A stretch of 64,000 bases of DNA from Cyanobacteria bacterium TGS_CYA1. GTDB lineage: Bacteria > Cyanobacteriota > Vampirovibrionia > Obscuribacterales > Obscuribacteraceae. The notes below the pieces were generated by a model that was given only the letters and a program-made list of their open reading frames with translations, ran no database searches and was not told the origin of the DNA. Shown in pieces: positions 13,307-63,312 of this stretch (position 1 is its first letter; every line of letters begins with the position of its first letter). The stretch covers positions 62,001-126,000 of the forward strand of contig JAHCIQ010000009.1 in the NCBI GenBank assembly GCA_026129135.1. Direction: 5' to 3'. Both the position numbers and the translations under genes were made by a program.

Positions 13307-13340
13307 TAAAAAAATAAACCGATATCGGCTTATTTTTAAA
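13307..13340. repeat. Dispersed AACCGATATCGGTT-type palindrome, copy 1
   Basis: The core reads ACCGATATCGGC and is flanked by TAA/TTA and then an A-tract and T-tract. Arms pair outwards from the centre at 13323/13324 for about 14 positions, with one A/C mismatch next to the core. It lies between convergent genes (stops at 13218 and 13360), 20 bases from the stop of the minus-strand gene, so a two-way terminator role is possible. Confidence 0.8.
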
Positions 13341-32957: not shown

Positions 32958-32999
32958 CAACTAAAAAAATAAACCGATATCGGTTTATTTTTTTAGTTG
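32958..32999. repeat. Dispersed palindrome, copy 2: perfect 42-bp inverted repeat
   Basis: Every base from 32958 to 32999 pairs with its mirror position around the centre at 32978/32979. The layout is CAACT, seven A, TAAACCGATATCGGTTTA, seven T, AGTTG. It lies 30 bases beyond the stop of the SRPBCC gene (minus strand), where it could terminate transcription in either direction. It is the most complete member of the family in this window. Confidence 0.92.
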
Positions 33000-37621: not shown

Positions 37622-37655
37622 TCAAAAAAATAAACCGATATCGGTTTATTTTTGT
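37622..37655. repeat. Dispersed palindrome, copy 3
   Basis: A 28-bp perfect inverted repeat (37626-37653) centred at 37639/37640, with TAAACCGATATCGGTTTA in the middle and A- and T-tracts outside. It begins 5 bases after the NfeD-like stop codon and precedes the flotillin gene, so it may separate or attenuate the two genes. Confidence 0.88.
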
Positions 37656-48054: not shown

Positions 48055-48092
48055 ATAAAAAACGAACCGATATCGGCTTATTTATTTTGGAT
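48055..48092. repeat. Dispersed palindrome, copy 4 (imperfect)
   Basis: Contains CGAACCGATATCGGCTTA between an A-rich left flank and a T-rich right flank, centred at 48071/48072. Two mismatches and one G-T pair separate it from the perfect form. It starts 3 bases beyond the stop of the gene at 47584, where a terminator would be expected for the heme transcript. Confidence 0.78.
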
Positions 48093-51571: not shown

Positions 51572-53102
51572 AGAAAGCAAACAAGATTCCACATCCTTCC
51601 TACCAGACGTTGGCGATATTTTGTACATCTGCATCATGCAGGTACTGCTCTTTGGTAGACCTTCCTTTCTTTTTCAAGATTGCTCGATTGGATGGCATCT
51701 TGCTGCTGGCCAGTTCATTTTAGAGCACGGACAAATTCCTCGAACCGATATCGCTTCATATTCTTTTCCAGATAAACCTTGGGTACCCTATGAGTGGTTT
51801 TTCGATTTAATAGCAGCCTGCTTGACCAATCTTGGCGGCTTCAATCTACTGGCTGTTTTTTCGGCTTCACTCATCGCATATGTTTTCGTGAAAACCTATG
51901 ACTGGCAACGATCACAGAATACAGGACTGAAAGTTGCCACGCTAGTTAGCATTATAGGTATTTTCGCATCAGCAGTTCACTGGCTGGCCCGTCCTCACAT
52001 CATCACATTCTTGTGCTTTTCTATTTATCTATCGGTTCTGCAAAAGTACGAGCGTAATGCGATATCTGGTCGCAGAATGCTCATTGTCTTAGCACTGACA
52101 ATGCTTCCCTGGGTCAATTGCCATCCGGCTTTTCCGCTTGGATTGATTCTGATTTCCATTCACCTATTTGCAGCACTGATATCCCGCTCCGCAAAAGACA
52201 AAGTGAAATTCTTGATTATAGCCCTTGCCACCACAAGCGCCACCACATTAATCAATCCAAATTTCTTCGAACTTCATTTGTACATTTTGAATTATCTTAA
52301 GGGAACGGGCATACTAGCGAACACAGAGGAATATTTATCGCCTGTATTTCACGGAAATATCCATGCTTTCTGCCTTGAACTTCTTATTTTCATTCTTATT
52401 ATTGCTTTCTACAAATACAGAGGAACCCAAAAGATCTCTTTGAGTTCAGTCCTCATAAGCATTTTCAGTCTTCATCTTGCATTGTCGGCTGTGCGAAACA
52501 TACCTATTTTCGTTTTAGCGGTCTCTCCTCTAATCGGTTTTCTGATGCAACGAAATACAAATGAAAACGTCGAGATCCAAGGAAAGATCGATGAAGAGAA
52601 CAAAAACAATACCGAGGTTGACAAATCCAGAAACAAGTTTGCAGAATTCGACCAGCAAGAATTGCGGAGTAAAAAGCGCATCTTGTCTGTTGTTTATACG
52701 CTTGTAGTATTAGTTTTGGCATTCACTCCAAACATGAAAACTGGCTTTAATCCAGAAACGACACCAACCAAGACTCTAGATTACATTGATAAGAACTTGC
52801 GTCCCGCCCAGGTCGGCGACTGCGGCTTTAACCTGGACAATTGGGGTGGACTGCTCCTCTACAAGCTGAAAATGAAAGTCTTCATCGACGACAGAGCAGA
52901 TTTTTACGGGCAGGAATATTACGGCAAATACGGCACCATTGTCCAAACAGATCCAGGATGGCAAGGCCTATTGGATCAATTCAAAATCAAATGGATTTTG
53001 ATGCCCGCAAATGCAAAATTAGTGCAAGCACTATCTATCAATCCCCAATGGTCCCTGGTTGCAAAAGACGAGGCTTCAGTCATTTATCGCCGCCAAAAAT
53101 GA
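51534..53102 (+). CDS. Polytopic membrane protein, GT-C glycosyltransferase-like
   Basis: 522 residues with about ten hydrophobic segments between residues 30 and 400. The N-terminal signature DCSIGWHLAAGQFILEHGQI, then PRTDIASYSF and PWVPYEWFFDLI, resembles a widespread group of GT-C-like membrane proteins of unknown or dolichyl-phosphate-mannose-dependent type. A soluble region (about 350-390) precedes the last segment, and the C-terminal 100 residues are extracytoplasmic with DDRADFYGQEYYGKY. It overlaps the pilin gene by 38 bases, so it may act on the pilus, for example by glycosylation, but this is inference. The end overlaps the convergent gene at 53080 by 23 bases. Confidence 0.6.
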   Translation: MNQMQQVQQVAPEESKQDSTSFLPDVGDILYICIMQVLLFGRPSFLFQDCSIGWHLAAGQFILEHGQIPRTDIASYSFPDKPWVPYEWFFDLIAACLTNLGGFNLLAVFSASLIAYVFVKTYDWQRSQNTGLKVATLVSIIGIFASAVHWLARPHIITFLCFSIYLSVLQKYERNAISGRRMLIVLALTMLPWVNCHPAFPLGLILISIHLFAALISRSAKDKVKFLIIALATTSATTLINPNFFELHLYILNYLKGTGILANTEEYLSPVFHGNIHAFCLELLIFILIIAFYKYRGTQKISLSSVLISIFSLHLALSAVRNIPIFVLAVSPLIGFLMQRNTNENVEIQGKIDEENKNNTEVDKSRNKFAEFDQQELRSKKRILSVVYTLVVLVLAFTPNMKTGFNPETTPTKTLDYIDKNLRPAQVGDCGFNLDNWGGLLLYKLKMKVFIDDRADFYGQEYYGKYGTIVQTDPGWQGLLDQFKIKWILMPANAKLVQALSINPQWSLVAKDEASVIYRRQK

Positions 53103-54123
53103 AATTTACGTCCAAAGGCGTTTCGTAAGTCAAAATTTGATGATATGAAATCTCAGAGGATCGCAAACATGCCCTTAAAAGACTATTGGGTCCCCAGGTT
53201 TTTCTATCTGTCCAACACCAGAAAACAGCTAGATAATTCTGCAAATATTTTCGACTTATTCCTCTAAATTTTTCGCGCAAAAAGAGTAGACATTTCGAAA
53301 CGTGCTTTTTCAATTTGTGGGAATATGGCTGAGCATCAAGATTTTGATGCAAGTGTGAATTCGAATTATCTTTGAGCGCGAAATAATTTGCTGGCAATCT
53401 TTCTATCAATCCCGCATCCTCCAGTTCAAAGAGAGGCAACATCACATCGTGAACGGTTGCTTCTAATTTTTGAAGTATGTTATCGAGGTCAATTTTTCCG
53501 GCCCGAATCAATTCGTAGACCTTGCGGTCAAAATCGCTTAGAGAGTTAAGTTTCAATTCAACATCTTCTGAACTTTTATTGAACTCGTCCTTTACGTTCA
53601 CTTTTAGATAAGCCATTTTTTGCTCTGCTTGCGGATGTTCATTAAGTGGAGTAAGCCTGCTCCTCTTCATAAAAATCGGCATGAACAAAGCAGAACCAAT
53701 CTTCTTTTCACGGTTTTCCATCAAGTCTTTTATGACTGTGGATAATTTTTTGAATATCGCCAAACAAGTAGAATAGGCTATTCCCAAATGTTTATGTATT
53801 TGAAAACAATTAAAAGCCAAACCTCGCTCCAGTAGCCAAATCATTTTTAGATATGGTCCGATTTTCCGAACGCCATTAAATATGGTGCCCGCTGTCAATG
53901 ACGAAATAGTGCCACAATCATTGCAAATACAATCTCGCGACCTGGCAAGCCTTCTAACATTACTGCCCTGACATTCCTTGCAACGCACTTCTTTCGCCAA
54001 TTTATTTAGAACATAATTCATGCATGTTTGCTCATCAGCAAACTTAGATTCGAATTTTGTCAAAGCAAGAACAACATCATTTGCGCATCCAAACTGGTCA
54101 TGTGCAAAACGCTCACTACTCAT
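53080..54123 (-). CDS. IS1595-type transposase-derived protein with a DprA-like winged helix replacing the catalytic domain
   Basis: 347 residues from ATG 54123, with AGGAGG 8 bases upstream (GTG 54132 overlaps that site). Residues about 30-85 are a zinc ribbon (CKEC...CNDC), and SLTAGTIFNGVRKIGPYLKMIW then begins the helical DNA-binding part typical of IS1595 transposases. Residues about 190-255 form a winged helix resembling DprA (LSDFDRKVYELI, FELEDAGLIERLPANYFAL). The end ISRKYLQNYLAVFWCW matches the C-terminal tail of the ISXO2-like domain. The DDE catalytic stretch between them is absent. No terminal repeats were found. It may be a domesticated DNA-binding regulator. Confidence 0.7.
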   Translation of the reverse strand: MSSERFAHDQFGCANDVVLALTKFESKFADEQTCMNYVLNKLAKEVRCKECQGSNVRRLARSRDCICNDCGTISSLTAGTIFNGVRKIGPYLKMIWLLERGLAFNCFQIHKHLGIAYSTCLAIFKKLSTVIKDLMENREKKIGSALFMPIFMKRSRLTPLNEHPQAEQKMAYLKVNVKDEFNKSSEDVELKLNSLSDFDRKVYELIRAGKIDLDNILQKLEATVHDVMLPLFELEDAGLIERLPANYFALKDNSNSHLHQNLDAQPYSHKLKKHVSKCLLFLREKFRGISRKYLQNYLAVFWCWTDRKTWGPNSLLRACLRSSEISYHQILTYETPLDVNFIFGGDK

Positions 54124-54185
54124 GCGTCTCACCTCCTTCTAAAAGGTAAGACGAAGAATTGATGCAAAGAGTTCAATTTGCCTCC

Positions 54186-54224
54186 CAACTAAAAAATAAA
54201 CCGATATCGGCTTATTTTTTAAAG
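54186..54224. repeat. Dispersed palindrome, copy 6
   Basis: Arms pair from the centre at 54205/54206 for 16 positions (54190-54221) with one A/C mismatch. It lies 11 bases beyond the stop of the degenerate GGDEF gene (minus strand) and 66 bases upstream of the transposase-derived gene start. Confidence 0.85.
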
Positions 54225-54231
54225 GAGTCAA

Positions 54232-54942
54232 TTAGAAGCAAAAAACGCGGTCTCCACCTCGTTCGATGGCATACTCTAATGATTCAAGAGCCTTGGCTAA
54301 CAAGTCTTCGTAAGAACTGCCGTGTCGAGGGTGGCTTGCAATTCCGAAACTGGCTGTAATTGAAAAGCTTTCCCAGTTATATGAAATGACCTGAGAACCT
54401 ATCTTCTTGCGTATACGCTCAGCCACAAGTGCCGCCTGGGCTTGTTGGGTTTGGGCAAAAATAATGGCAAATTGCACTGGACTGTAAACAGCGCAAATAT
54501 CTACTTCTCGGGTAGAAGTGCGAATAACGTTTGCAATTACCTTTGATATCGCGTCTCTTGTGAGTGGACCATATTTGTCATAAATTTCGTCGACTCTATC
54601 TACACTGAAAAGGCAAATGCACATTTCTTGAGAGTAGCGACTAGCACGCAATAACTCGGCCTGCATCTCTTTGGTAAAAGCTTGATGATTGGGAAGTTCT
54701 GTAAGAACATCTAAATGCGCTAGCCGTTCAATTTCGATACCCTTGGATTTGATTGCAGCAAGTTCTTTTTCTCTTTCTTTGGAAAAACTTTCCAATTGCC
54801 TAACTTTCTCTAAAGTATCTGCTTTGGTCGCTAGAATTTCCTTTAGATGAGGACGCCTTCGCTCAACATCTTCTCGAACCTGAAAGAACGTCAGATTTTT
54901 AAAGTCGGCGCTTTTCTTTGTAGCGGTTTTGTCTTCAGTCAT
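54232..54942 (-). CDS. Degenerate GGDEF domain protein
   Basis: 236 residues. A charged helical N-terminal part (about residues 20-75) is followed by a GGDEF fold (about 76-235): HLDVLTELPNHQAFTKEM, then FSVDRVDEIYDKYGP, and SFGIASHPRHGSSYEDLLAKAL near the end. The signature half reads VYSPVQFAIIF where RYGGDEF is expected, so the active site is lost and cyclase activity is unlikely; a GTP- or c-di-GMP-binding or purely structural role remains possible. It follows the 2Fe-2S ferredoxin gene by 15 bases. Confidence 0.82.
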   Translation of the reverse strand: MTEDKTATKKSADFKNLTFFQVREDVERRRPHLKEILATKADTLEKVRQLESFSKEREKELAAIKSKGIEIERLAHLDVLTELPNHQAFTKEMQAELLRASRYSQEMCICLFSVDRVDEIYDKYGPLTRDAISKVIANVIRTSTREVDICAVYSPVQFAIIFAQTQQAQAALVAERIRKKIGSQVISYNWESFSITASFGIASHPRHGSSYEDLLAKALESLEYAIERGGDRVFCF

Positions 54943-56021: not shown

Positions 56022-58052
56022 TTAGAAATTAACCGATATCGGTTCGATTTTTTCTTTAAGGTCAAGATCAAAAATCAGCGCGTAAAAATAAAGTTCGGCC
56101 TCCATGGTTCTTTTAATATTTTCGGCTTTGCGAAAACCATGCTGTTCGCCTTCATAAGCTAAGTACGCCACAGTGACTTTTTTGTCTTTCAATGCGGCGA
56201 CCATTTGCTCTGCTTGAGACGGCGGCACGACTTTGTCTTCCAGACCCTGAAAAAAGATTACCGGACAGTTCAGCTTATTTGTGAAATTAATGGGCGAACG
56301 ATCGAAATACAGACTCGCAGCTTCAGGATATGGACCGATAAGACTGTCCAGATACCTTGACTCGAATTTATGAGTGTCGTTCATCAAGGCTTTTAGATCG
56401 CCTATGCCGTAATAACTGCAACCCGCGGTAAAAGTGTCGCAAAATGTCAAAGCGCACAGTGTTGTGTATCCACCTGCGCTGCCACCAGCGATAATTAAAC
56501 GCTTGGGATCTACAAGCCCCTTGTCGCATAAATATTGCGCGGCACCCTGGCAATCCAGCATGTCTACGATGCCCCAGTTTTTCAGTAAGCGATTTCTGTA
56601 CTTCCTGCCAAATCCCGTGCTCCCGCCATAATTAACATCAACTACAGCAAAACCTCTACTGGTCCAGAATTGATAAGTGAGATTCAAAACAGCATCAGAT
56701 GCCGAAGTAGGTCCGCCATGGCTTCGAACTATTAGGGGCGGCTTGTCAATATTATTTACTTCGACGTTCTTATTTTGCGGCGGATAGAAAAATGCATGCG
56801 CCAATTCTTTGTTTGCGCCTTCAAATTCAATAGTCTGTGGAATTGAGATAAATCCTTTGTCTATCTGAAGACTAGAGCCCGAGCGCAAAATTTGAAAGCT
56901 TTTATCACGAGTGTCGAATTTCACCACCGACCGCACCATATTTGGTGCTCCTGCAATCATCACGATATCGGTGCCTCTAGCCGAGACGTAGTCCATGTCA
57001 GTAAATGGAGTCTCTATTTTGCAAAAAGTGTAGTGATTCTTTTTATTATCAAACTCTAATAGCGACAGAAACCACAAGCCTTTTTCGCAATAAACGCTAT
57101 ATAAACTCTTTTCGTCCTCAGCCAAGGCATATGTATTATCAGCGAAGACCCAGAGCGGCAACCCAAATTCAGCAGACATCGAAACAACGGGAATTTTTTT
57201 CTCCACAGAAGAAGAACTAAAAACAGTTTCGGGCGCACTAATTTTATAAATATTCCAGAATCCAGATTCTTCATCGACAAAGAACAAAGTTCCATCCGGA
57301 GCAAACAAGGGCTGATAGACAGAGTTATCAACACCGCCTGCAACTATTTCTGGTTCTCTTGTCGGATCATTCAAGTCTGCTAAAAACAATCTACTTTCAT
57401 CCCAGGGCATGTTGGGATGTTCCCAGGCAATAAAGGCACACAGTGAGCCACTTTCGTTCAATCTTGGAAAAGCGAAAAAGTCATGTCCGGCATAAAGTAC
57501 GATTGGTTCATTGCCAACACTGTTCTGGTCTAGTTCAAGTGAGACGGCTGCAATTACGTTCTGGGGCTCGCCGCCAGCTTCAGGCAGTATTTCCATCACG
57601 CACAAAATGCGATTTCTATTTTTGTCGAAAACCAGATCTGCATATCGCCAGGGTCCTTCACAAGACAAGGCGCGAGGCTCTTTTCCACTTGCCGCAAGAT
57701 AAAGTCGCTGATCTTTATAATTGACAAAAACGATTATTTCTTGAGCGTCCCCAAAAACTGTGCATTCCGGTAAAACGGCATAAGCACCGCCGCCATACTC
57801 GTGTACGAGAGTACGAGCATTGTATCCCTGCGGAAACATATCCTCCGCACCATGCTTATCATTGCGCACCACAACGTTGCGTCCGCCTTCGAGAGGTCTG
57901 GTTTCAAGCCAATAAACAAATGGATCAGAACCGTTTGCACTTTTAAAACCAAATTGCGATTCCTGCAATTTGATGCTCCCACCAGCGATTTCTTGAGCAC
58001 CAATGGGACTTTGCCAAACTTTTCTCTTATTCGATGATTCAGTCTGATTCAT
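56022..58052 (-). CDS. S9 family peptidase (prolyl oligopeptidase/acylaminoacyl-peptidase-like)
   Basis: 676 residues. Residues about 40-380 form a beta-propeller (FDKNRNRILC, FAWEHPN-type FIAWEHPNMPWD, FAPDGTLFFVDE), and about 400-665 the alpha/beta-hydrolase domain. The catalytic Ser is in IIAGGSAGGYTTL, with Asp in FFQGLEDKVVPPSQ and His in EGEQHGFRKAENI. SHGGPTSA and VNYGGSTGFGR form the oxyanion region. It cleaves peptides, probably in the cytoplasm as no signal peptide is seen. The C-terminal end (EPISVNF) is encoded by palindrome copy 7. Its start overlaps the end of the upstream MshEN-like gene by 14 bases. Confidence 0.88.
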   Translation of the reverse strand: MNQTESSNKRKVWQSPIGAQEIAGGSIKLQESQFGFKSANGSDPFVYWLETRPLEGGRNVVVRNDKHGAEDMFPQGYNARTLVHEYGGGAYAVLPECTVFGDAQEIIVFVNYKDQRLYLAASGKEPRALSCEGPWRYADLVFDKNRNRILCVMEILPEAGGEPQNVIAAVSLELDQNSVGNEPIVLYAGHDFFAFPRLNESGSLCAFIAWEHPNMPWDESRLFLADLNDPTREPEIVAGGVDNSVYQPLFAPDGTLFFVDEESGFWNIYKISAPETVFSSSSVEKKIPVVSMSAEFGLPLWVFADNTYALAEDEKSLYSVYCEKGLWFLSLLEFDNKKNHYTFCKIETPFTDMDYVSARGTDIVMIAGAPNMVRSVVKFDTRDKSFQILRSGSSLQIDKGFISIPQTIEFEGANKELAHAFFYPPQNKNVEVNNIDKPPLIVRSHGGPTSASDAVLNLTYQFWTSRGFAVVDVNYGGSTGFGRKYRNRLLKNWGIVDMLDCQGAAQYLCDKGLVDPKRLIIAGGSAGGYTTLCALTFCDTFTAGCSYYGIGDLKALMNDTHKFESRYLDSLIGPYPEAASLYFDRSPINFTNKLNCPVIFFQGLEDKVVPPSQAEQMVAALKDKKVTVAYLAYEGEQHGFRKAENIKRTMEAELYFYALIFDLDLKEKIEPISVNF
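56023..56052. repeat. Dispersed palindrome, copy 7, overlapping the S9 peptidase stop region
   Basis: AACCGATATCGGTT at 56031-56044 is a perfect 14-bp palindrome, with a T-rich right flank. On the minus strand it encodes the last residues of the peptidase (EPISVNF) before the stop at 56022-56024, so the gene end has been built on the repeat. Confidence 0.82.
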
Positions 58053-59385: not shown

Positions 59386-59646
59386 ATGTCCGCTCAAGCG
59401 CCTACAAAACAAATCAAGGTCAGATATTTCGCTATCTTGCGTGAGGAACGCGGGCTTGACCTTGAGGAAATCAGCACGAATTGCGAGACACTGGAACAAC
59501 TCTATAAAGAATTATCGAACCGATATCGGTTTAGTTTGGAAGCGAGCCGGCTTGCAGTGTCTCAAAACGACAATTTTGCCGCCTGGACCGATCCCGTGAA
59601 ACATGGCTCGACAATAGTTTTCATCCCTCCAGTTGCAGGAGGCTAG
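59386..59646 (+). CDS. moaD: Molybdopterin synthase sulfur carrier subunit MoaD
   Basis: 86 residues from ATG 59386. The ubiquitin-like fold is shown by IKVRYFAILREERGL at the start and the C-terminal IVFIPPVAGG, whose last Gly becomes thiocarboxylated to feed sulfur to molybdopterin. Residues 45-50 (NRYRFS) are encoded by palindrome copy 8, yet the length and alignment fit normal MoaD. An in-frame GTG at 59335 is less likely. moaE begins 4 bases after the stop. Confidence 0.9.
   Translation: MSAQAPTKQIKVRYFAILREERGLDLEEISTNCETLEQLYKELSNRYRFSLEASRLAVSQNDNFAAWTDPVKHGSTIVFIPPVAGG
59515..59536. repeat. Dispersed palindrome, copy 8, within moaD
   Basis: CGAACCGATATCGGTTTA lies in frame within moaD, with a perfect AACCGATATCGGTT at 59518-59531 but without long A- and T-tracts. 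It encodes Asn-Arg-Tyr-Arg-Phe at a place where MoaD proteins often have RY-containing sequence, so it may be chance or a captured copy. Confidence 0.65.
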
Positions 59647-62070: not shown

Positions 62071-63312
62071 ATGTTATCTTACGTCGAAGCTCGCAATCTC
62101 ATAATTAGCTCGCTGAATACGCTCGAAGCTATAAATTTACCTATCTCCGAAAGTCTGCACCACACCTTGGCGGAGCCTGTTATCGCCCCGTTTGAAATGC
62201 CATTGTTCGATAATTCTGCAGTCGATGGATATGGTGTACTGGTTAACGACTTGATTAATGCTGATTTGAATAATCCAATCGAACTGAAATTGATTGGGTC
62301 ACTCGAGGCCGGTACTAAAAATTTGGATGGGCAACCTCGAATAAAACTGGGCGAATGTGTCAAGATCCTGACTGGTGCGCCCGTTCCACCAGGCGTAGAG
62401 GCCGTCATCATGAAAGAATATAGCGCTTTTGAAAAACAAACCGATATCGGTTTATTTTTTAAATCGGTCTCTAAGGGCGAGAACATCCGCAAACAAGGCG
62501 AAGAGTTAAAGAGGGGAGATCGGGTAATCCCAGCAAATACGCGGATCAACGCTCCTGTTGTCGGAATGTTGGCAAGTCTGGGATATGCAAATTTCAAAGT
62601 AATTAAGCAACCCCAAATAGCCATTCTCACAACAGGTGATGAGTTAATTGAACCTGGCCAAAACCTGGCAAGAAATCAAATTTTCAATTCAAATTCTTAT
62701 GCCATAGAAGCCGCCTGCAGGTCTTTGGGATTGAGCCAATTAATCAAACTACATTGCATTGATACCAGGGAAGATACCATCGAAAAGATGACGCAAGCAA
62801 TCGAATTTGCGGACGTAATTATTTGTACGGGTGGCGTCTCGGTTGGCGACAGAGACCTGGTGAAACCAGTTCTGGAAGAGGATTTCAAAGTCGAGACCAT
62901 TTTATGGAGGATCGCCATCAAGCCAGGCAAGCCCGTTTTCTTCGCCAGGAAGAATGAAAAATATTTCTTTGGGTTACCTGGGAATCCCGTCAGCGCCCTG
63001 GTTACATTCCATCTTTTTGTAAAGCCTGCCCTGATGAGACTGCAAGGCGTAGCTCCATGCGATCCAGCGCAAAATAGGGCCATTTTGAGCAAAAAAATCA
63101 AAAAGAAAGCTGGGCGGATGGAATTTGTCAGAGGTATTCAAAAGAGAACTAAAGATGATAACCTGATGGTTGAGCCGACCCGTGGTCAAGAATCACATAT
63201 GCTTAGCGGTCTGGCAGCTGCGGATTGCCTAATCCATTTCGACCTGGAAGACGAAGTTTTGGATGAAAATACTCAAGTCGAAATTCAAAAATTGGATTGG
63301 CAAAACTATTAG
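62071..63312 (+). CDS. moeA: Molybdopterin molybdotransferase MoeA
   Basis: 413 residues. MoeA inserts molybdenum into adenylylated molybdopterin. Signatures: MPLFDNSAVDGYGV, KILTGAPVPPGVEAVI, GENIRKQGEELKRGD, LTTGDEL, NSNSYAI, CTGGVSVGDRDL, RIAIKPGKPVFFA and FGLPGNPVSALVTFHLF. Codons 123-130 (QTDIGLFF) are encoded by palindrome copy 9 in a variable loop, without changing the expected length. The gene starts two bases after the fusion gene's stop. The dienelactone hydrolase gene follows after 18 bases. Confidence 0.95.
   Translation: MLSYVEARNLIISSLNTLEAINLPISESLHHTLAEPVIAPFEMPLFDNSAVDGYGVLVNDLINADLNNPIELKLIGSLEAGTKNLDGQPRIKLGECVKILTGAPVPPGVEAVIMKEYSAFEKQTDIGLFFKSVSKGENIRKQGEELKRGDRVIPANTRINAPVVGMLASLGYANFKVIKQPQIAILTTGDELIEPGQNLARNQIFNSNSYAIEAACRSLGLSQLIKLHCIDTREDTIEKMTQAIEFADVIICTGGVSVGDRDLVKPVLEEDFKVETILWRIAIKPGKPVFFARKNEKYFFGLPGNPVSALVTFHLFVKPALMRLQGVAPCDPAQNRAILSKKIKKKAGRMEFVRGIQKRTKDDNLMVEPTRGQESHMLSGLAAADCLIHFDLEDEVLDENTQVEIQKLDWQNY
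62431..62462. repeat. Dispersed palindrome, copy 9, within moeA
   Basis: Arms pair around the centre at 62445/62446 for about 14 positions with one mismatch. AAACCGATATCGGTTTATTTTTT includes the T-tract seen in the intergenic copies, so it could act as an intragenic terminator on the plus strand. The open frame passes through it. Confidence 0.85.

Follow-up and report, generated by a model that had tools for sequence, protein, structure and literature searches.

The 64,000-nt window analyzed in this study (the whole stretch of contig DNA, from a genome of the Obscuribacterales) contains an open reading frame whose product has the two ends of an IS1595 transposase, a winged helix between them, and a palindrome upstream of its gene. 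What is the role of such a protein, and is the palindrome its target? To our knowledge, there is almost no experimental biology of the Obscuribacterales, an uncultured group of non-photosynthetic relatives of the cyanobacteria. The protein, its relatives and the DNA surrounding their genes were compared computationally.

Domain organization of the predicted protein

The gene, its translation signals and the domains of its product are as follows:

53080..54123, minus strand: putative gene for an IS1595-derived DNA-binding protein (intact ORF, ATG at 54123, 347 aa; full-length homologs)
GTG at 54132, minus strand: alternative start of the same ORF, which would give 350 aa
54130..54139, minus strand: ribosome-binding site GAAGGAGGTG, separated by 6 nt from the ATG at 54123 (from the sequence)
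53713..54075, minus strand: IS1595-type N-terminal domain, residues 20–140 of 350 (zinc ribbon C51/C54/C70/C73 and helix-turn-helix)
53620..53685, minus strand: family-specific motif FxxxFxKRSxxTPxxxHPxxEQ, residues 150–171 (from the alignment; R157, S158 and P167 invariant)
53383..53544, minus strand: DprA-type winged helix, residues 197–250 (PF17782 and structure model)
53092..53331, minus strand: IS1595-type C-terminal tail GISRKYLQNYLAVFWC, residues 268–347 (NF033547 and C-terminal profile)

The intact frame and the strong ribosome-binding site agree with the preliminary description of this DNA, in which the zinc ribbon, the adjoining helical part and the C-terminal tail had been assigned to the IS1595 type. 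These assignments were confirmed when the protein was cut into parts that were searched separately. The N-terminal half was aligned by hhalign with seven IS1595-family transposases from related genomes (probability 99.8, E 3e-30, profile columns 24–142), and the N-terminal profile matched IS1595 proteins with E 1e-20. The C-terminal profile matched them with E 1e-7, with no match for shuffled controls, and residues 284–307 of the window protein matched NF033547 (the NCBIfam IS1595 family) with E 4e-4, under the curated cut-off. In IS1595, the segment corresponding to this tail follows the catalytic residues.

Between the two ends, residues 197–248 matched PF17782 in a single-sequence search (E 8e-4). 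Among 28 members of the family, NF033547 was matched by 14 (best 1.5e-7) and PF17782 by 27 (best 1e-15), the latter above the cut-off in all four copies of the window's genome. Since the relatives match both families, the weak single-sequence matches of the window protein can be considered firm. In an AlphaFold2 model based on a 28-row alignment (pLDDT 89.3), the winged helix is placed at residues 200–253, with helices at 200–210, 216–223 and 227–239, and strands at 243–253.

The claim that the catalytic region is gone, and that a DprA-type winged helix lies in its place, is also borne out by these analyses. The model of the window protein contains no RNase H-type sheet, no match to PF12762 (the IS1595 DDE domain) was found anywhere in the window's genome, no conserved acidic triad is visible in the alignment of 28 members, and the middle and winged-helix profiles of the family matched no IS1595 protein. 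The family-specific motif occupies approximately the position expected for the first catalytic strand of IS1595, and it too matches no IS1595.

No match to the Rossmann-type (ssDNA/RecA-loading) domain of DprA was found in the window protein with Pfam or NCBIfam. Structure searches of PDB and BFVD yielded no match for the whole chain; only winged helices and partial hits were returned, and E was never < 0.001. Searches of PADLOC and PHROGs yielded nothing beyond weak, partial similarity. The possibility that this is a phage or plasmid gene was rejected, since the window protein has no phage match and its sole plasmid match is an annotated IS1595 transposase with 26% identity.

A C-terminal DprA-type winged helix was also observed in a HigA/XRE-type antitoxin-like protein (L005:1126–1689; G000:C15, about 71.3–71.8 kb), so the domain is present in another fusion in the window's genome.

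Distribution and evolution of the family

A profile search revealed 228 full-length copies (the sum of per-genome counts) in 40 of the 50 genomes of the same bacterial family, Obscuribacterales, with up to 20 copies per genome and almost all frames intact; gene calls were the longest ORFs, in MAG data. The window's genome has four full-length copies, 31–34% identical, on four contigs. Among 386 genomes sampled from the phylum, the full architecture was not found outside this family, the other genomes containing separate halves only (DprA winged helices or IS1/IS1595 zinc ribbons). All 26 named matches came from Melainabacteria/Obscuribacterales-type MAGs or from entries titled only Cyanobacteria or uncultured bacterium. 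The winged helix is present in 129 of 130 collected members, the exception being L131 of genome G029.

In a quick tree with many weak branches, all members were separated from six IS1595 proteins with a branch support of 99. The four copies of the window's genome, as well as those of several other genomes, group largely by genome, which suggests that expansions were repeated within lineages. Recent duplicates in genome G033 consist of the gene together with 150–340 nt of upstream DNA, and no inverted ends were found at their borders.

Comparison of two congeners, G027 and G035, allowed selection to be measured. All 17 of the G027 copies compared have a reciprocal best match in G035 (65–80% identity), the nearest paralog being at most about 42% identical, and these genes are syntenic 1:1 orthologs, with 70–100% of each 7–8 kb locus alignable. 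The dN/dS ratio (NG86) was 0.13–0.27 in all 17 pairs. The family is functional, vertically inherited and under purifying selection, as measured in this sister-species pair. The term “transposase relic”, originally applied to the gene, is not upheld by the existence of full-length paralogs and orthologs and by purifying selection where it is measurable.

Two observations concern IS1595 transposases. In a 155-aa IS1595 reading frame (L055:1204–1671; G020:C38), most of the DDE region is deleted and both ends are kept, which may picture the first step of domestication. The lineage's IS1595 transposases at L048, L049, L050 and L051 seem to be devoid of the usual catalytic glutamate, with VHRAISLFKRFL replacing HTNxIESFW.

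A conserved palindrome upstream of the family genes

The following element precedes the window gene:

54192..54219, no strand: upstream palindrome, putative operator, with core CCGATATCGG at 54201–54210 and 13/14 arm pairs

Its position 66 nt upstream of the ATG (centre 54205/54206) was correctly given in the preliminary description. Alignment of the regions upstream of eight G033 paralogs revealed a conserved palindrome with the same core as that upstream of the window gene. Operator-like palindromes, in which the core CCGWTAWCGG is common to the family and the arms are specific to each paralog, were found approximately 100 nt upstream (median centre −98 nt) of ~100 of 130 family genes.

Between positions −450 and +200, exact copies of CCGATATCGG are present in 59/130 members and those of CGATATCG in 77/130. 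Among the 256 palindromic 8-mers, the latter ranks first in enrichment (82 occurrences vs. 4.3 expected), followed by CGTTAACG. At least 12 of 14 arm pairs were recorded for 68/127 family genes, compared to 0/127 shuffled sequences and 7/166 other ORFs of the same loci, and perfect 28-bp palindromes for 38/127 (shuffled, 0); since related genomes are non-independent samples, fewer independent events are involved than these counts suggest. In about 28 of the 130 family genes the operator was undetected, in some cases due to a misplaced ORF start.

The operator cores vary little (CCGATATCGG 54, CCGTTAACGG 8, TCGATATCGA 7). Within the arms, positions 8, 10 and 11 are free and positions 12–14 are A-rich. 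The arms are symmetric despite differing among paralogs, and a paired change was identified between the orthologs L078 and L094. The arm mismatches on the sense strand comprise 22 GT/TG, 20 AC/CA and 23 others, and this absence of wobble bias fits double-stranded DNA rather than RNA. Analysis of covariation between protein residues and palindrome bases gave a signal dominated by shared ancestry, with no clear recognition residue. In the IS1595 copies of related genomes, no inverted-repeat pair resembling the palindrome was found.

Tandem palindrome arrays were observed at several loci: (i) L131:1250–1655 (spacing about 35 nt), preceding the gene of the one member that is devoid of a winged helix, and (ii) G027:C1:424212–424353, 478762–478992 and 2873775–2873999 (spacing about 66, 40 and 45–57 nt, respectively).

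Palindrome clusters around the family genes

Further palindrome cores (no strand) are dispersed throughout the window:

13319..13328: core, same arm type as that of the gene (AAAATAAA), between convergent genes
32974..32983: core of a perfect 42-bp palindrome, intergenic
37635..37644: core, same arm type as that of the gene, intergenic
48067..48076: core, same arm type as that of the gene, intergenic, 16 nt after a stop codon
51323..51332: core, same arm type as that of the gene, in the 5′ end (probably the leader) of a small ORF of 90 aa
51745..51754: degenerate core CCGATATCGC, inside a 522-aa ORF
56033..56042: core, at the 3′ end of a 676-aa peptidase-like ORF
59520..59529: core, inside moaD; no insertion in the PDB alignment
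62441..62450: core flanked by long arms, inside moeA; about 3 extra residues at most in the PDB alignment

Since the moaD and moeA sites add no or about three residues relative to solved homologs, these sites seem to have arisen in place. A site in the formate-tetrahydrofolate ligase gene, inspected by eye and unaligned, looks length-neutral too.

Genome-wide sites were identified by pattern searches, with site definitions derived from the data except in the case of the CCGTTAACGG prediction. The window's genome contains 61 CCGATATCGG sites, every one of which was read, compared to 0 sites of the reversed string. Eleven of the 61 are located on C16, the contig of the window, most of them with AAAATAAA arms (P 5e-6), and eleven CCGATATCGG sites, most with AAACGTAAT arms, lie on C10 within 53 kb around the paralog L002 (P 3e-10). 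The operators of the paralogs L003 (C12) and L004 (C15) have the core CCGTTAACGG, and it was predicted in advance that CCGTTAACGG sites would be located near both of them. This prediction held for 19 of the 20 sites in the genome, 14 of which are on C15 and 5 on C12 (P about 3e-16). The arms of the four further C15 sites read agree with the operator of L004, the mean similarity being 0.88. The difference between home and other arm types exceeded that in all permutations (0/5000). For three of the four paralogs (on C16, C10 and C15), sites of the matching palindrome type gather around the gene itself; the operator of L003 on C12 is imperfect and its cluster is weak. The association of palindromes with family genes, their symmetry, the specificity of their arms and their clustering in the window's genome are all shown by these analyses.

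Among 47 cluster sites, 26 are located in coding DNA (vs. 41 expected) and 21 in intergenic DNA (vs. 12% expected), where they are about fourfold enriched. The intergenic sites lie in 3 convergent, 16 tandem and 2 divergent gaps, with no preference for divergent or promoter-bearing gaps.

The support from other genomes is less extensive. There, 41 second sites are more similar to the operator found in the same locus than to those of other loci (Wilcoxon P 6e-4; short loci). The local clusters of G027 are small (one to few sites), and many of its sites are far from known family genes, as are tandem arrays. Genomes that have the family contain more copies of the core (P 3e-5 for 24 genomes; P 8e-4 within the bacterial family alone), and no excess of the core was found in genomes without it; a control string also differs mildly between the two groups (P 0.01), so part of the difference in core counts reflects genome size or composition.

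Two groups of sites were observed apart from known family genes of the window's genome (G000). Contig C5 (L194–L195, G000:C5:30–54 kb) carries about nine palindromes, including CCGATAACGG, CCGTTATCGG and CCGTTAACGG variants, and no family gene was detected on this contig. A third arm type, AAAACCTAAACCGATATCGGTTTAGGTTTT, is present at sites on C1, C5 and C9, and none of the operators of the four known paralogs matches it.

Proposed function and alternative explanations

The gene probably encodes a domesticated transposase turned into a site-specific DNA-binding protein, dimeric and autoregulated, which acts on its own chromosomal neighbourhood. According to this model, a DprA-type winged helix replaced the catalytic DDE core of an IS1595 transposase, while the zinc-ribbon/HTH end-binding part and the C-terminal helices would have been retained; the gene would then have multiplied within the Obscuribacterales. 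Reuse as a DNA-binding protein had already been suggested for the window gene, and the data support this suggestion. The target of each paralog is most likely a private palindrome of 28 bp or more, bound by a dimer in which a conserved module would read the shared core and the rest of the protein the paralog-specific arms.

That the family proteins are palindrome binders is very probable. The support is indirect but strong, and is provided by (i) the palindrome core, which is the most enriched upstream palindromic 8-mer of the family, (ii) the paralog-specific arms and (iii) the matching clusters of three of the four paralogs. The imperfect operator and weak cluster of L003, the family genes in which no operator was detected, the small clusters and distant sites of G027, and the C5 cluster and third arm type that lack a matching gene count against the model. 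Since the protein is proposed to bind a copy located about 70–100 nt upstream of its own start, autoregulation of the family genes is rather likely, and would most simply be repression, as exerted by InsA in IS1. A simple scan of region 53950–54450 revealed no sigma-70-like promoter, so the argument for autoregulation is one from palindrome position only.

The further copies distributed over about 50 kb around the gene in the window's genome, in intergenic and coding DNA alike, would also be bound. This spread suggests that the protein marks, organizes or regulates its neighbourhood, and does not act on promoters alone; a neighbourhood role is given an even chance, with its architectural and regulatory versions about equal. 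A more tentative proposal is that the genomes of this lineage are in part split into private territories, with palindrome copies every 2–4 kb over about 50 kb, in which each paralog would mark and organize the neighbourhood encoding it.

An ordinary family of autoregulated transcription factors with local regulons, in which each paralog would repress or activate its own gene and a few adjacent ones through operators and the in-gene sites are weak or incidental, has a somewhat less than even probability. It overlaps with the model of a domesticated, neighbourhood-acting protein, the neighbourhood role setting the two apart. Bacterial regulators are often encoded close to their targets, and the position of the operator (about −98 nt) and the roughly fourfold intergenic enrichment (21/47 vs. 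12% expected) are in agreement with local regulons, whereas the 26/47 cluster sites in coding DNA, including the genes of the conserved enzymes MoaD, MoeA and formate-THF ligase, and the intergenic sites without preference for divergent or promoter-bearing gaps argue against them.

It is improbable that the family is still mobile, with the palindromes being either element ends or repeats similar to REPINs or Rickettsia palindromes, moved by the family itself or by an active IS1595 in trans. A mobile unit was rejected because the G033 duplicates have no inverted ends and no palindrome-like inverted-repeat pair was found in the IS1595 copies of related genomes, despite the dispersed single-gene duplications carrying 150–340 nt of upstream DNA in G033 and the clusters around the source gene, which resemble local hopping. 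Furthermore, genes and sites stay in place between sister species, the moaD and moeA sites add no or about 3 residues, the family is devoid of a catalytic core and the window's genome contains no IS1595 DDE domain. A similarly low probability is assigned to a separate, family-independent regulator with all the palindromes as its targets and the family genes under its control. The core common to most family genes would be expected of such a regulator, but not the paralog-specific arms, the clustering of sites with the matching paralog in the window's genome, or the lack of a core excess in genomes without the family.

It is very unlikely that the palindrome works at the RNA level, as a hairpin or a leader element such as a terminator or attenuator, instead of as a DNA site. 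Its arms covary and several of the window copies are located 15–47 nt after stop codons, but copies are also present within coding sequences and in convergent gaps, and no terminator was called in the scan of 53950–54450. An RNA element was rejected given the lack of G-U bias in the arm mismatches and of any Rfam match near a family's gathering score. Finally, a decaying relic without function, as the missing DDE core and the IS1595 ancestry might imply, has hardly any probability. It was rejected on the basis of copy data (228 copies are full-length, and nearly every frame is intact), selection (dN/dS of 0.13–0.27 in 17/17 pairs) and synteny, and the conserved upstream palindromes also speak against it.

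Comparison with known systems

No family in Pfam or NCBIfam describes the zinc-ribbon/winged-helix/tail architecture, and no description of this architecture or of the palindromes was found in the open-access literature. Exapted transposases and autoregulated DNA-binding proteins are already known; private territories would be new in kind and, if functional, would represent a new way of organizing a bacterial chromosome. Host-transposase fusions are better known in eukaryotes, and the present proteins are a clear example from bacteria: a transposase exchanged its catalytic domain for a further DNA-binding module, and its descendants diversified into a large family. Approximately 100 natural pairs of protein and palindrome, in which the core is constant and the arms vary, amount to a readable specificity code suited to the study of specificity evolution.

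The family shares with IS1595 transposases (NF033547, PF12762) the homologous N-terminal zinc ribbon/HTH and the C-terminal tail, but it has a winged helix instead of the DDE domain, no inverted ends were found, and each copy is vertically inherited in the sister pair G027/G035. With DprA it shares the winged helix (PF17782, matched in 27 of the 28 members tested), while the Rossmann-type domain is absent, the partner domains are different and the role is probably another one. RAYTs keep the tyrosine (Y1) transposase that spreads REPINs. In the REPIN-RAYT system, a domesticated transposase is likewise tied to many genomic palindromic sequences (PMC8049555). The present family, in contrast, has no catalytic core, and the few coding-gene sites inspected show no insertion.

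InsA, the zinc-finger/HTH repressor of IS1, acts on its own promoter (PMC12428005), and this precedent indicates that the zinc-ribbon/HTH half of such a transposase can perform the self-repression step alone. InsA also consists of a zinc ribbon and HTH without a catalytic part, and it binds the ends of the element in addition to repressing its own promoter. Unlike the proteins described here, which belong to no element and contain a winged helix and a C-terminal tail, InsA is part of a live insertion sequence. It acts on transposon ends, whereas each paralog of the family has its own palindrome, in the window's genome mostly with a chromosomal cluster.

TldR was exapted from TnpB. It is also a transposon protein turned into a DNA-targeting regulator (PMC13418256), but it is RNA-guided and of unrelated origin. 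The two features of MatP- and ParB-like systems looked for, namely (i) regional concentration of sites (on C16, C10 and C15) and (ii) sites untied to promoters, were both found. In both ParB-parS and MatP-matS, a protein binds a short DNA target that is repeated and whose copies are concentrated in one region of the chromosome. MatP-matS defines one domain of 800 kb with 23 sites (PMC3330122), whereas in the window's genome several paralogs of other origin, with private palindromes, would each have a territory of ~50 kb centred on their own gene.
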